Source: Candidatus Hydrogenedentota bacterium (GTDB taxonomy: Bacteria; Hydrogenedentota; Hydrogenedentia; Hydrogenedentales; JAEUWI01). Taken from it: a stretch of DNA of 64,000 bases. Location of the stretch: positions 1-64,000 of the forward strand of contig JAEUWI010000032.1 in NCBI GenBank assembly GCA_016791475.1, given 5' to 3'. The translations under genes and the position numbers were made by a program. The notes under the pieces are model-generated. The model did not search any database. It was given only the letters and a program-made list of their open reading frames with translations, and was not told where the DNA came from. Of this stretch, positions 3,034-8,299 are shown one piece after another (the first letter of the stretch is position 1; each line of letters starts with the position of its first letter).

Positions 3034-3516
3034 TCATAGTGCCTTGCGCCAGTACCCGATGTCGATCCAGCGATCAAATTTAAAGCCTACGGCGGGAAAA
3101 TGGCCAACCTTTTCAAAGCCCAGCTTTTCGTGGAGGGCCACACTGGCTTCATTGGGCAGGGCGATACAGCCTATGGCAATCTTCACATCGTGGTCGGGAA
3201 GTGCACGGAGAAGTTCGGTGTAGAGTTGCGTACCAATCCCCCGCCCCTCCGCGCCCCGGCGCAGATATATGGTGGTCTCGGCGCAGTAGTGATAGGCCGC
3301 CCGTTCCTTCCAGCGCGAAGCATAGGCATAACCGAGAATCTCTCCCCCATCCGCATAAACCAGCCAGGGGTAACGTGCGGTAATGGTTTCGATGCGGCGG
3401 GTCATCTCCCCATCGTCCACGGCCCCATATTCGAAGCTGGTAACGAGGTCGGTAACGTAGGGATTGTAAATCGACGCTAGAGATGGACCGTCGTGTCCGG
3501 TGGCCGCGCGAATCAT
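3034..3516 (-). CDS. GNAT family N-acetyltransferase (Pat/Bar-like)
   Basis: About 160 residues. The start MIRAATGHD is a typical GNAT opening; an alternative in-frame start at 3540 would overlap the upstream CheX-like gene. The acetyl-CoA loop is seen as RRGAEGRGIGTQLY (motif A, Q/RxxGxG/A), followed by NEASVALHEKLGFEKVG (motif B). Overall it resembles phosphinothricin-type acetyltransferases, which acetylate small amines or amino acids, but the substrate is not predictable. The start lies 5 bases after the stop of the CheX-like gene, so the two are likely co-transcribed. Confidence 0.8.
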   Translation of the reverse strand: MIRAATGHDGPSLASIYNPYVTDLVTSFEYGAVDDGEMTRRIETITARYPWLVYADGGEILGYAYASRWKERAAYHYCAETTIYLRRGAEGRGIGTQLYTELLRALPDHDVKIAIGCIALPNEASVALHEKLGFEKVGHFPAVGFKFDRWIDIGYWRKAL

Positions 3517-3521
3517 GGCGC

Positions 3522-4016
3522 CTACTTCACCGAGATGCAAACATCAAGGGCGAAAGACTCCCGTTCCACATTCTCAAAAACGATAACGACACAATACGTG
3601 CCGCTGCGGTGAAACACTTCATGCTTGCCGCCCGAAATGATGGTGGGCAGGGTCATATTGAACTTGTACATCGTTCCCGCGAGCCTGGTCTTGGCGCCGC
3701 CCGCAATCATATTGATAAGTTCGCCCACCCCGTCGCGTATCTCTGATTCCGCAAGCATTTCATCATCCGGCGTCATGAGCATGGCCCGAATCGCGCGCTC
3801 CGCCAGTTCCGCGGGCATACTGAGCGCGCAGGTGCCCGTGGTCGTGCCCGACAGCCCCATAACGCCACTGACATCCCCGTACATGTCATAACCCTGCTTG
3901 ATAAAAACCTCCTTCCGGCGGATCTGCATGCCGATCATGGTGGAGAAGGCTTCCTTGGTGGCGTCGATAAAAGGAGCGATAAGCTCCAGTTTCAGGGATG
4001 AAGACATTGGGACCAT
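3522..4016 (-). CDS. CheX-like chemotaxis phosphatase family protein
   Basis: A 164-residue cytoplasmic protein of the CheC/CheX/FliY fold. The conserved helix DGVGELINMIAGGAKT (about residues 97-112) holds the Glu and Asn pair that in CheX attacks the phospho-Asp of CheY. There is one such helix, as in CheX. GGAG is close to the first ATG, but MSSS at 4007 is an equally good start. No other che genes are in the window; the partner response regulator must be elsewhere. Members of this family in non-chemotactic settings also exist, so a link to motility (flgK at 47.5 kb) is only suggestive. Confidence 0.8.
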   Translation of the reverse strand: MVPMSSSLKLELIAPFIDATKEAFSTMIGMQIRRKEVFIKQGYDMYGDVSGVMGLSGTTTGTCALSMPAELAERAIRAMLMTPDDEMLAESEIRDGVGELINMIAGGAKTRLAGTMYKFNMTLPTIISGGKHEVFHRSGTYCVVIVFENVERESFALDVCISVK

Positions 4017-4464
4017 TCGCTCCAGGGTTCACCGGCAATCCGGGTTCTGGCTGAAATTCATCACACTCCGGTCAACCACCAGGGGCACTTTTGCCCCGGC
4101 AAGACCCGAGTGTGCCATTTTCGCATCCCGCAGCCTTTTCCGCAACAACGCAACATATTGTGCGGCTGGTGTCCACCGGAAAACAGGGGTATTAACGTCG
4201 AATTCGGATACTTATCCACAGGGTGTTTCAGCCCAACGCGGAAAGAGCGGGTGTTGAATATCTTTTCAGATGTTTATTCTCAAATAACTCAAAATAAAGA
4301 GGTTACACTATGATTTACGACTATGGGTAACTGAAGAGCCACCGGCATTCGCAATATTTTTCACTAGGCGCCCCATGGTTTTTCACATGTTATCCACAGG
4401 CATAAACACAGCAGTTCACGTTGACTTACCACCATATATTGCCCCATACCCGCTTTGCCTCGTC
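4017..4464. other. Left half of putative oriC: DnaA boxes and AT-rich stretch
   Basis: A gene-free spacer between the CheX-like gene and the dnaN terminator. It holds two perfect DnaA boxes (TTATCCACA) at 4212-4220 and 4390-4398, both on the + strand, plus a weaker TTTTTCACA just before the second. Between them, 4255-4315 is clearly AT-rich relative to the surrounding DNA and could serve as an unwinding element. The absence of a dnaA gene here does not argue against an origin, since dnaA and oriC are separated in many phyla. Confidence 0.65.
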
Positions 4465-4500
4465 AAAAAATAAAACAGGAGCCGAAATTGCCGGCTCCTG
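4465..4500 (-). terminator. Rho-independent terminator of dnaN
   Basis: Read on the - strand, a 9-base stem (CAGGAGCCG / CGGCTCCTG) is followed at once by a T-rich tract. It sits about 35 bases after the dnaN stop codon and would end leftward transcription before it enters the DnaA-box region. Confidence 0.85.
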
Positions 4501-4535
4501 CCAAACATGCATAACGATCAGTCCGACCGGACCCC

Positions 4536-5642
4536 TCAGATCCGGATCGGCATCACCACGTTGATGTAGGTATCATCCGGTGCATCCGTGCAGGGCTTGA
4601 GAATACCCGGGCTCATGGCGTCCTTCACCACCAGGGCCACCTGATCGGACTCCATCCGGCGCAGCACATCCAGCACGAAATCGGGGTTAAAGGCAATTTC
4701 CACCTTATCGCCATCATAATCGATAGGCAGCTCTTCCTCGTACTCGCCGACTTCGGGGGTCACCACCTTCAGCGTCATCACGCCCTTGCCGAAGCCGAAG
4801 CGCACGGAATTGAACTTGTCGTTGGTCATGGTGCGGGTACGCCGGACGGCTTCGGTGAAACGCTCCGTATTGACGAGGATTTCCTTGTCATGCTTGGCGG
4901 GAATCACCATGTTGTAGTTGGGGAAGGTGCCTTCAATCAGGGCCGAAACCATGCGGAGGTTGTTGAACACGAAGGCGATCTGGCTTTCGTCGAGGAAGAT
5001 CTGCGCCATCTCGTCTTCATCCAGCAGGCGCTCCAGCTCGTGGATCATCTTCGAGGGAATGATTACCTTGGCCTCACGGTCCGAGGGAATGCCCTCCAAC
5101 TCGCGATTCAAGCTCATCCGGCGCCCGTCCGTGGCCACAACGGTGATTTTGCCGTCCGCTATCTCAAAAAGCAGGCCGGTGAGGTTATAGCGCGCCTGGT
5201 CGTTGCAGATGGCGAAGGAAGAGCGCAGGAACAGCTTCTTCAAGGTCCCCTGCTTGAGCGTAAGGGGTTCTATGCCCTCAAAGCTGCGGATGGGCGGGAA
5301 TTCATCCGGCGACATGCTGAAGAGCTTCGTATCGATTCGCCCGCAGGTGATTTCGATGACGTTGTTGTCCATCAGGTTGAGCGTGATGTCTTCGTTGGGC
5401 ATTTCGGAAAGCATGGAGGAAATGCGCTGGGAAGATACGGTGAGGGCGCCCGGACGTTCCACGGTGCAATCCACCGTGCATTCGATGCTGACCTTGAGAT
5501 CGGTGGCCGCCAGCTTAATGTTGGCTTCGCCCGTTTCAATCAGGATATGCGAGAGAATGGGCAAAGCGGATTTGGAAGAGACGATGCTCTTGACCTTATT
5601 GACGGCATCCAGCAAATCCTGTCGCGGGATCGTAATCTTCAT
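4536..5642 (-). CDS. dnaN: DNA polymerase III beta sliding clamp
   Basis: A 368-residue protein, the usual length for the beta clamp (366-375). The N-terminus MKITIPRQDLLDAVNKV, the central KIIPSKMIHEL-type segment and the C-terminus ending NVVMPIRI match the family, in which three copies of one fold build half of the ring that tethers polymerase to DNA. The C-terminal V-M-P-x-R motif forms part of the peptide-binding pocket. The gene stands alone with its own terminator; it is not next to dnaA or recF as in many bacteria. It lies between two DnaA-box clusters. Confidence 0.97.
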   Translation of the reverse strand: MKITIPRQDLLDAVNKVKSIVSSKSALPILSHILIETGEANIKLAATDLKVSIECTVDCTVERPGALTVSSQRISSMLSEMPNEDITLNLMDNNVIEITCGRIDTKLFSMSPDEFPPIRSFEGIEPLTLKQGTLKKLFLRSSFAICNDQARYNLTGLLFEIADGKITVVATDGRRMSLNRELEGIPSDREAKVIIPSKMIHELERLLDEDEMAQIFLDESQIAFVFNNLRMVSALIEGTFPNYNMVIPAKHDKEILVNTERFTEAVRRTRTMTNDKFNSVRFGFGKGVMTLKVVTPEVGEYEEELPIDYDGDKVEIAFNPDFVLDVLRRMESDQVALVVKDAMSPGILKPCTDAPDDTYINVVMPIRI

Positions 5643-5682
5643 TCTGGTTCTCCATGTCCGTTTACGGGGATAAGTGGTGCTT

Positions 5683-5712
5683 ATTATATTAGATTGAATA
5701 TAGAGATAAAAC
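5683..5712 (-). promoter_or_regulatory. Putative dnaN promoter
   Basis: On the - strand a perfect TATAAT lies about 40 bases before the dnaN ATG. The -35 region at 17-18 bases spacing is poor (TTTTAT or GTTTTA). The site is within the AT-rich edge of the origin-like spacer, so DnaA could influence it. Confidence 0.45.
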
Positions 5713-6319
5713 CAGTCGTAATAGTAATAGGGACTGGGATAGCGTGGAAAAGTGGGTCAACGTGTTTGATTATAGCTGTTTAGCCTGTGGAAAGAAACCT
5801 GAATAACCCACTTCGTTTTCCACCGCCCTCCCCAAGGGGGTCGTATTGGTTTAGATCCGCCTGTGAATATCCCTATCGGAATGTGTAAAACCCCGGTGGT
5901 TTTCCATAGGTTATATGACGCTTTTCCACCGGGGGCCGGAGTCTCGTTTTTCCACCGACTTTCGAAGGTTATCCACACCGCTTTCAGGGCCTGCTTTGGA
6001 GCCTTTTCCCGGTTATCCCCAAGTTCCCCAAAAAGTTTTTCCCGGCCTGTGCAAAACGAGGGACGCGCGCCGGAATCCGGCGCGCGTCTCACATAAGCCA
6101 TTGAAAATAAACGGGTTAATTATTCAATTGTATCGTAGGTTCCAAGTGAACCGGCAACCCTAACCCTATGAAATACAATAGTTTGTACGTCGTTTACCAC
6201 CGGGGGTGAAATACCGGTTATTCGACCTCAGGAGGGGTTATCCACATGTTTTCCACAGGCCTTCTTCACCCTTCCATCTTTAATTGAATTTTTCCGTTTC
6301 GGTGCGCTGCTGAGCCACC
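5713..6319. other. Right half of putative oriC: dense DnaA-box-like array
   Basis: A gene-free spacer between dnaN and pilB. Perfect TTATCCACA boxes lie at 5969-5977 and 6238-6246, with close variants at 6013-6021 (TTATCCCCA) and 6249-6257 (TTTTCCACA). Three TTTTCCACC copies lie at 5816-5824, 5922-5930 and 5948-5956, and TGTGGAAAG on the opposite strand at 5786-5794. AT-rich patches lie at 5680-5725 and 6100-6190. Such density of one motif is hard to explain other than by DnaA binding. Confidence 0.7.
6062..6088 (-). terminator. Perfect 12-base-stem hairpin downstream of pilB
   Basis: GACGCGCGCCGG and its exact complement are separated by 3 bases. Read leftward it is followed by CCTCGTTTT, so it may stop pilB transcripts from running through the origin region; a structural role at the origin is the alternative. 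Confidence 0.45.
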
Positions 6320-8299
6320 TCAGGTGCGGATAACACGCAGGAATTCTTCCGGATTCACCAGGCCCTCCGTCACTTTCTGGCGACAACGCATGGCCATGGT
6401 GGTCAGTTTTGCGGCTTTCATGATGACTTCGGCGCTGGCTTCTTCGTAAATCAGCTTGCGGATGGGCTCGGTAATTTCCAGCACCTCGAAAATACCGGTA
6501 CGACCATGATTGCCCGTGTGGTAGCAGGCGTCGCAACCGCTGCCGCGGAATAGTTTCTTTGTCGTCGCGGGCAAACCGAGGGATTTAAGCAGCGTGGGCG
6601 CCGGTTTGAACGACGTGACGCACTCGCGGCAGATGGTGCGGACCAGCCGCTGGCCAATGACGGCGGTCAGGGCGCTGGAAATGAGATAGGCGGGCACTTC
6701 CATGTTGCGCAGGGTGGCGATAGCCTCGGGCGCGTCATTGGTGTGCAGGGTGCTGAATACAAGGTGGCCGGTCATGGCGGCGCGGATGGCGATGCGGGCG
6801 GTCTCGGAATCTCGAATTTCGCCCACGAGCAGCACGTCGATATCCTGGCGGAGGGCGGCGCGGAGCGTATTGGCGAAGGTGACGTCAATATCGGTATCGA
6901 TCTGCACCTGATTGATGCCGGAAAGCTGGTATTCCACCGGATCTTCGATGGTCACGATACTGTCGGTCATGACGTTTTTCTGATTCAGGGCCGCATAAAG
7001 GGTCGTGGTCTTACCGCTGCCCGTGGGGCCCGTGACGAGGATCATGCCGTAGGGCTGTTCGATAATGCGGGTCAGGCTTTCCTCATCGTCGGATTCGAGG
7101 CCCAGATCGCGGATACCGGAAAGCACGGAAGATTGATCCAGGAGGCGGAGCACAATGCGCTCGCCGAGGAAAGTGGGCAGCGTCGCAACGCGCACGTCGA
7201 ACTCGCGGTCGCCGACCTCCAGGCTGATGTGGCCGTCCTGGGGGTGGCGCGTATCCGTAATGTCGAGTTCGGCAATAATCTTGATGCGGGAAACCACGGC
7301 ATTTTCGAGCTCTTCGGGAATACTCATGATGTCGTGGAGCACGCCGTCGATGCGGTATCGAACGCGCATTTCGGGTTCCTGGGGGTCCAGGTGGATGTCG
7401 GTGGCGCCGGAATTGACGGCGCCCTCGATGATGGTGGTGACCATCTGGATCACGGAACTTCCCGACGCCGCCCGGGCAATGGCTTCAAAACGCGCGGACT
7501 CCCGCTCTACTTCGACTTCCTCATTAACGTTCACGGTATCATTCTCCATAACCGATTTGCTTATAGATGGATGGACGGATTTTACAGGCACTTCTTCATC
7601 GAGCTGTTTTGCGGCCTGCCGGGCGGCACGGACCGGCGGGGTCGCGGCACTGGCGTCGTTTTCCTTCAAGGTTCCATAGCGCCGGGCAAGTTCGGTCTTG
7701 ATGTCCTCGCAGGCGGTAATGCTGACGTGGATTCGTTTTCCCAGGATAATGCTTGCGGCTTCAAGCCGGTCCAGAGCCTGTGGGCTGGTAATCAGCACGT
7801 CGAGCCGATCGCCCTGGAGGCTTATGGGTATGATTTCATTCTTGCGGGCCACGCTTTCCGGAATCAATGCGAGGGCTTCGGTGTCGCTGGGGGTCTTCTC
7901 CAGGATGGTATAGGGCAATTCGTGTTGTAAACTGAAGGCCCGGGCAATATCTTCCCGCGTGGCATAGCCGTGTTCCACAAGAATATTGCCCAGCAGTCGG
8001 CCCTTGCGCTTCTGAAGGGCCAGGGCCTCTTCGAGCTTATCCTGGGTCAATACCCCCATACCGACCAGGGTATCGCCCATGCTTTGCTGCACCGTATGAA
8101 CGGCTTTGGAATGGAATTCATAGCGGAGCATGTCTTCAACGGCGTTGAAAGACACTTTTCTGGCCTGGATGAGTTGTTTGTACCATGGGGTTCCGGTACT
8201 GGCTTCTTTTTCCTTGGCCTTGTTGAGCTCATCGCGGGTGATGAGCTCCTGTTTGACGAGATTTTCACCGAGTGTAGCGCTGTTTCTGCGCGCATTCAT
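6320..8299 (-). CDS. pilB: PilB/GspE-type assembly ATPase
   Basis: A 659-residue cytoplasmic ATPase that powers extension of a type IV pilus or type II secretion pseudopilus. The first ~220 residues contain two MshEN/GspE-N-like modules (LGENLVKQELIT and LGNILVEHGYAT repeats) that can bind c-di-GMP in some members. The ATPase core has Walker A GPTGSGKTTT (about 423), an Asp box, Walker B LLVGEIRD (about 487) and the zinc-binding CxxC pairs TICRECV and GCDACY (about 555 and 590). It is longer than average PilB because of the N-terminal modules. No other pilus genes adjoin it. An A/G-rich ribosome site (AGGAGGAA) precedes the ATG. Confidence 0.9.
   Translation of the reverse strand: MNARRNSATLGENLVKQELITRDELNKAKEKEASTGTPWYKQLIQARKVSFNAVEDMLRYEFHSKAVHTVQQSMGDTLVGMGVLTQDKLEEALALQKRKGRLLGNILVEHGYATREDIARAFSLQHELPYTILEKTPSDTEALALIPESVARKNEIIPISLQGDRLDVLITSPQALDRLEAASIILGKRIHVSITACEDIKTELARRYGTLKENDASAATPPVRAARQAAKQLDEEVPVKSVHPSISKSVMENDTVNVNEEVEVERESARFEAIARAASGSSVIQMVTTIIEGAVNSGATDIHLDPQEPEMRVRYRIDGVLHDIMSIPEELENAVVSRIKIIAELDITDTRHPQDGHISLEVGDREFDVRVATLPTFLGERIVLRLLDQSSVLSGIRDLGLESDDEESLTRIIEQPYGMILVTGPTGSGKTTTLYAALNQKNVMTDSIVTIEDPVEYQLSGINQVQIDTDIDVTFANTLRAALRQDIDVLLVGEIRDSETARIAIRAAMTGHLVFSTLHTNDAPEAIATLRNMEVPAYLISSALTAVIGQRLVRTICRECVTSFKPAPTLLKSLGLPATTKKLFRGSGCDACYHTGNHGRTGIFEVLEITEPIRKLIYEEASAEVIMKAAKLTTMAMRCRQKVTEGLVNPEEFLRVIRT

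Follow-up and report, generated by a model that had tools for sequence, protein, structure and literature searches.

A probable chromosome origin beside dnaN in a Candidatus Hydrogenedentota genome, with a second group of DnaA boxes behind the gene

The stretch of DNA analysed here (the window) comprises bases 1-64000 of contig C32, from a 7.7-Mb assembly of a Candidatus Hydrogenedentota bacterium in 529 contigs. The gene for the beta clamp of DNA polymerase III, dnaN, lies in it between two spacers, as a sequence-only reading of this DNA had proposed, and the spacer upstream of dnaN is closed on its other side by a gene for a PilB/GspE-like ATPase:

4017..4535, no strand: spacer downstream of dnaN, probable accessory DnaA-box module (perfect boxes at 1.05/kb in relatives vs ~0.02/kb background)
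4536..5642, minus strand: dnaN, DNA polymerase III beta clamp, 368 aa (Pfam beta-clamp domains; NCBIfam TIGR00663, 297.7 bits over cut-off)
5643..6319, no strand: 677-bp spacer from the PilB/GspE-like gene to dnaN, probable core oriC (two perfect and two one-mismatch boxes; conserved trio element)
6320..8299, minus strand: PilB/GspE-like ATPase gene, other flank of the probable core origin (Pfam T2SSE, MshEN)

The order PilB/GspE-like gene, spacer, dnaN is kept in most relatives. Nearly all relatives of this dnaN in public records belong to Candidatus Hydrogenedentota; one record titled Nitrospiraceae (JAACEL010000164.1) carries a dnaN of the Hydrogenedentota type (69% identity), and the name of this bin is probably wrong. 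An Rfam search of positions 3500-7000 found no RNA family.

Both spacers are AT-rich (52% upstream and 51% downstream, vs 40% for the window), and the four perfect TTATCCACA boxes that had been read in them were recovered at 4212, 4390, 5969 and 6238, all on the plus strand. The accompanying claim of at least five near copies holds only if sites with two mismatches are counted. One-mismatch sites number three (6013, 6249 and 6325, the last within the PilB/GspE-like gene, at its 3' end), and five further sites keep the CCAC core intact but have two mismatches (5743, 5786, 5816, 5922 and 5948). The principal boxes and box pairs are the following:

6238..6257, plus strand: distal DnaA-box pair TTATCCACA-TG-TTTTCCACA with an 11-bp period (-615/-604 of dnaN in most relatives)
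6013..6021, plus strand: DnaA box with one mismatch, TTATCCCCA (match search)
5969..5977, plus strand: perfect DnaA box at -335 of dnaN (among the most conserved single box positions in relatives)
4377..4401, plus strand: box pair behind dnaN, TTTTTCACA-TG-TTATCCACA (an 88% match to 6236-6260, the distal pair)
4212..4220, plus strand: perfect DnaA box, 178 bp from the box at 4390 (match search)

Matches to TTATCCACA with at most one mismatch number 17 in the window against 6.25 expected, a count reached in 0 of 100 shuffles, and 7 of the 17 fall in 4212-6333. The word itself is not enriched genome-wide, because its 21 perfect sites in 7.7 Mb compare with 20 for the reversed control; 4 of these 21 fall within 2 kb around dnaN. 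A Poisson estimate for the two dnaN spacers, derived from the other 17 sites and ignoring local composition, gives ~2e-12. In a comparison confined to the surroundings of perfect boxes, no box cluster was found at any other such locus of the genome, none of which has more than two near boxes besides its own within 600 bp. The only other same-strand box pair of the genome, TTATCCACA-AG-TTATCCACA (contig C4, 78501-78520), lies in an intergenic spacer flanked by an argG-like gene on one side and rsmD/nrdR-like genes on the other.

The upstream boxes recur at fixed offsets in about 40 relatives, and their positions are kept over most of 11 families. Within 0-800 bp upstream of dnaN, boxes with at most one mismatch reach a density of 6.24/kb in relatives vs ~0.2/kb elsewhere, and perfect boxes reach 1.91/kb vs a background of ~0.01-0.02/kb. 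Besides the 11-bp pair at -615/-604, the recurrent offsets from dnaN are -335, -287, -246 and -183, and the distal boxes point predominantly one way (98 vs 5).

Directly upstream of dnaN lies a further conserved element that the sequence-only reading had missed, composed of tandem boxes, CTA-type DnaA-trios and TTTTATATATA. Its parts in this genome are:

5734..5751, minus strand: tandem weak boxes TTTTCCACG CTATCCCAG (putative BUS boxes), running into the trios (2 and 4 mismatches)
5696..5731, minus strand: predicted DnaA-trio and AT-rich unwinding element CCTATTACTATTACGACTGGTTTTATCTCTATATTC (leave-family-out profile; low stability)

Read on the minus strand, 5696-5751 gives TTTTCCACG CTATCCCAG TCC CTA TTA CTA TTA CGA CTG GTTTTATC. 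A MAFFT alignment of relatives yields the consensus TTTTCCACA.TTTCACA..CCTACTACTACTACTACTTGTTTTATATATA at about -110 to -55 of dnaN. When the profile for each genome was built without its own family, the element was the best match of the stretch examined in 36 of 42 genomes, and its position was almost invariably -60 to -110. In a stability scan of this genome, the 40-mer with the lowest stability in the region begins within the element, at -80 of dnaN. DnaA-trios are described as 3'-GAT-5', i.e., 5'-CTA-3' on the other strand, in the order box, trio, AT-rich stretch (PMC8287927, PMC8235120), and the published search for a basal unwinding system (BUS) requires three or more trios no farther than 16 bp from a box that has no more than 2 mismatches (PMC8287927). 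Here, TTTTCCACG stands 12 nt from CTA TTA CTA TTA, trio-type repeats on the correct strand. Judged by its sequence, the box-trio-AT element at 5696-5751 is thus the known basal unwinding system, with boxes that are degenerate in this genome, a feature that counts against the reading of the spacer as an origin.

The segment from the distal pair to the -335 box contains two conserved 25-bp quasi-palindromes of the form YAAGTnnTTn7AAnnRCTTR, ~67 bp apart, and a weaker one is found between the two downstream boxes:

6161..6185, minus strand: 25-bp quasi-palindrome, copy 1, CAAACTATTGTATTTCATAGGGTTA, possible IHF/HU-family site (~-542 of dnaN in relatives)
6094..6118, minus strand: 25-bp quasi-palindrome, copy 2, TAACCCGTTTATTTTCAATGGCTTA, possible IHF/HU-family site (~-475 of dnaN in relatives)
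4281..4305, minus strand: weaker 25-bp quasi-palindrome between the two downstream boxes (motif search)

The motif occurs upstream in 34 of 41 genomes (shuffle mean 7.3, max 14) and downstream of dnaN in 26 of 42 (shuffle mean 7.8); it was defined on the same sequences as were counted, so that its fixed position is the stronger evidence. An IHF pattern, WATCAANNNNTTR, was matched with at most one mismatch in 28 of 41 genomes vs a shuffle mean of 12.5, and the copies here match it with one mismatch. The quasi-palindromes have halves resembling the IHF core CAAnnnnTTR and a distance of 9 bp between the TT and AA steps, which is also that of the IHF-DNA structure. Of the three DNABII genes in the genome, two have IHF models as their best match, at scores below the curated cut-offs. 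IHF binding can reasonably be inferred because of the likeness of the half-sites, the TT/AA spacing and these two IHF-like genes, and the quasi-palindromes may therefore be sites of an IHF-like protein.

The strand composition also changes at this locus. GC skew, measured at contig scale in this genome and in relatives, is negative in the window to ~5 kb and positive after ~6 kb, with means of ~+0.08 over 81 kb to the right of dnaN vs ~-0.05 over 4.5 kb to the left; as far as contigs allow, the skew check suggested by the sequence-only reading thus places the sign change at dnaN. In a comparison of 10 kb on either side of the gene, 26 of 29 Hydrogenedentota genomes have a higher skew downstream of dnaN than upstream (Wilcoxon p 5.5e-6), and the mean profile passes from ~-0.07 at -4 to -8 kb to ~+0.03 at +2 to +9 kb. 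The skew is contrary in three genomes (G021, G033 and G055) and weak in several, including G001 and G005.

The same comparison around dnaA gives a rise in only 7 of 22 genomes (p 0.14), i.e., no switch. As had been noted, dnaA is absent from the neighbourhood of dnaN: the genome's only full-length DnaA (TIGR00362, 546 bits) is encoded on contig C4, and among 60 genomes of the same order the two genes lie on separate contigs wherever both were found. In most genomes of the phylum, the region upstream of dnaA carries one to a few boxes, perfect ones included, which fits promoter autoregulation.

Collectively, the box cluster, the AT-rich unwinding element and the switch in strand composition are the features of a bacterial DnaA-dependent oriC, and the 677-bp spacer at 5643-6319 is very probably the chromosome origin of this Hydrogenedentota genome. 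The origin role first proposed from the boxes alone is thereby well supported, by the skew, which switches at dnaN but not at dnaA, by conserved box positions and by the box-trio-AT element. At such an origin, DnaA supplied from its distant gene would bind the distal pair (6238-6257) and the -335 box (5969), and an IHF-like protein may bend the DNA at the 25-bp quasi-palindromes. A DnaA filament, loaded by the tandem weak boxes (5734-5751), would then form on the CTA-type trios (5719-5730), and the strands would open at the trios and in the adjoining AT-rich stretch (about 5680-5720). Helicase would enter there and two forks would set out, one of which would have dnaN on its leading side.

Promoters often contain DnaA boxes, and dnaA itself has one to a few in most genomes of the phylum, so the boxes might only serve the regulation of dnaN or neighbouring genes by DnaA, with the origin located elsewhere. 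This is very unlikely in view of the ~5 boxes that keep their positions along 620 bp, the trio element, the skew switch and the failure to find a rival cluster. Still more improbable is an origin by dnaA, as in many bacteria, with the dnaN cluster left as a relic or a DnaA-titration site: perfect boxes do occur upstream of dnaA, but the skew does not switch there, and the 199-kb contig with dnaA in this genome has a positive skew along most of its length. Moreover, nothing similar to the trio element was found within 1 kb upstream of dnaA. A separate oriC of the same box type next to dnaA, which the sequence-only reading had named as an outcome that would overturn its proposal, was looked for in the same region, where no large box cluster is present either.

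The spacer upstream of dnaN being the probable core origin, the part of the boxes behind the gene is a separate matter. In relatives, perfect boxes within 0-500 bp behind dnaN are ~50x denser than background, 41 of 46 near boxes there share one orientation, and the two boxes are separated by 178 bp within the genus, vs about 198-211 bp in several further families. The module is present in families f1 and f9, in most of f5 and in parts of f4 and f7; in f2, f3, f6, f8, f10 and f11 it is absent, save two isolated boxes in opposite orientation, and families without downstream boxes still keep the upstream element. Thus, of the original proposal of an origin split around dnaN, the two box groups stand, the downstream one being a real, oriented module that is conserved in some families, whereas the core parts all lie upstream and the second module is missing in six families. 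The downstream boxes are probably accessory and lineage-specific, because many relatives lack them. Those at 4212 and 4390 probably bring in further DnaA, which may reach the core through a loop that spans dnaN; alternatively, the boxes may titrate the protein.

A truly bipartite origin, in which both spacers are needed and DnaA bound on both sides loops out dnaN, much as dnaA is looped out in B. subtilis and H. pylori, is compatible with a core origin upstream but is a stronger claim, and we regard it as a credible though less favoured possibility. The strong enrichment, shared orientation and conserved spacing of the downstream boxes argue for it, as do the close similarity of 4377-4401 to the distal pair and the recurrence of the quasi-palindrome downstream; the six families that have the upstream element and no downstream boxes argue against it. 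Its fuller version, with matching modules on both sides (11-bp box pair, 25-bp bend site and a further box), with looping of dnaN by DnaA together with an IHF-like protein, and with retention in several families and loss in others, is slightly more tentative. Rather unlikely is that the downstream boxes form a DnaA-titration or DnaA-recharging site of the datA/DARS type that is not part of the origin. Two boxes ~180-210 bp apart about a possible bend site, found in only part of the phylum, would suit such a site, but the boxes are only two or three and lie very close to the probable origin.

In B. subtilis the BUS is likewise positioned directly upstream of dnaN. The probable core origin resembles the BUS of B. 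subtilis (incC) and of H. pylori oriC2 in its tandem boxes, short spacer, 5'-CTA-3' trios and AT-rich stretch (PMC8287927, PMC6669920, PMC8235120), and differs from these origins in that a PilB/GspE-like gene takes the place of dnaA on the other side. An oriC beside dnaN without dnaA is known from the cyanobacteria Synechococcus elongatus and Cyanothece (PMC3480399, PMC4674748). The arrangement is shared with cyanobacteria in so far as the origin occupies a spacer by dnaN with dnaA elsewhere (far off in S. elongatus), whereas the PilB/GspE-like neighbour, the phylum and the second box group behind dnaN are different. The box type differs as well, being TTATCCACA here vs TTTTCCACA in cyanobacteria; TTTTCCACA occurs once, and all perfect boxes are TTATCCACA. 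Split origins are described in B. subtilis, H. pylori and Mollicutes, where the separating gene is usually dnaA (PMC4285127). By sequence, the locus has the same make-up, i.e., two box groups, a gene between them and an unwinding site in one, but here dnaN separates the groups and the second one is not conserved across the phylum. As in E. coli oriC with its IHF site (PMC10380432), a possible bend site lies between box groups and the genome has two IHF-like genes; unlike in E. coli, IHF binding is only predicted here and the trio array is clear, the E. coli BUS score being weak (PMC8287927).

The box-trio module, dnaN-linked origins without dnaA and split origins are therefore already known; new are the phylum, the arrangement PilB/GspE-like gene, oriC, dnaN, and the box module behind dnaN. 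Judged by titles and abstracts, a literature search for Hydrogenedentes and oriC returned no description of an origin in this phylum. The result gives a probable site for the start of replication in a phylum that is represented here by uncultured assemblies only. A BUS that is conserved across the phylum and stayed with dnaN though dnaA is elsewhere supports the idea of an ancestral unwinding module. Additionally, since related families differ in the second box group, they offer a natural test of why some origins split.

Several minor observations were made in the course of this analysis. The half-sites TGTTCCACG and CGTGGAACA in the consensus upstream of dnaN were considered as parS and rejected, full parS being on another contig and none in the window near the origin; they are left as variant boxes or something else. 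Two perfect parS sites, TGTTCCACGTGGAACA, lie 102 bp apart at 118481-118598 of contig C6, at the 3' end of an rsmG-like gene, and no further parS with at most one mismatch was found in the genome. On contig C13, a long protein encoded at 106461-109934 combines an MshEN piece at its N terminus with a DnaA-type AAA+ domain, lacks the DNA-binding domain of DnaA and is encoded next to a GspE/PilB-like ATPase; DnaA-like matches in long open frames also occur in two relatives (G046 and G052). Finally, two HupE/UreJ-family genes stand side by side at 201-1386 of the window.
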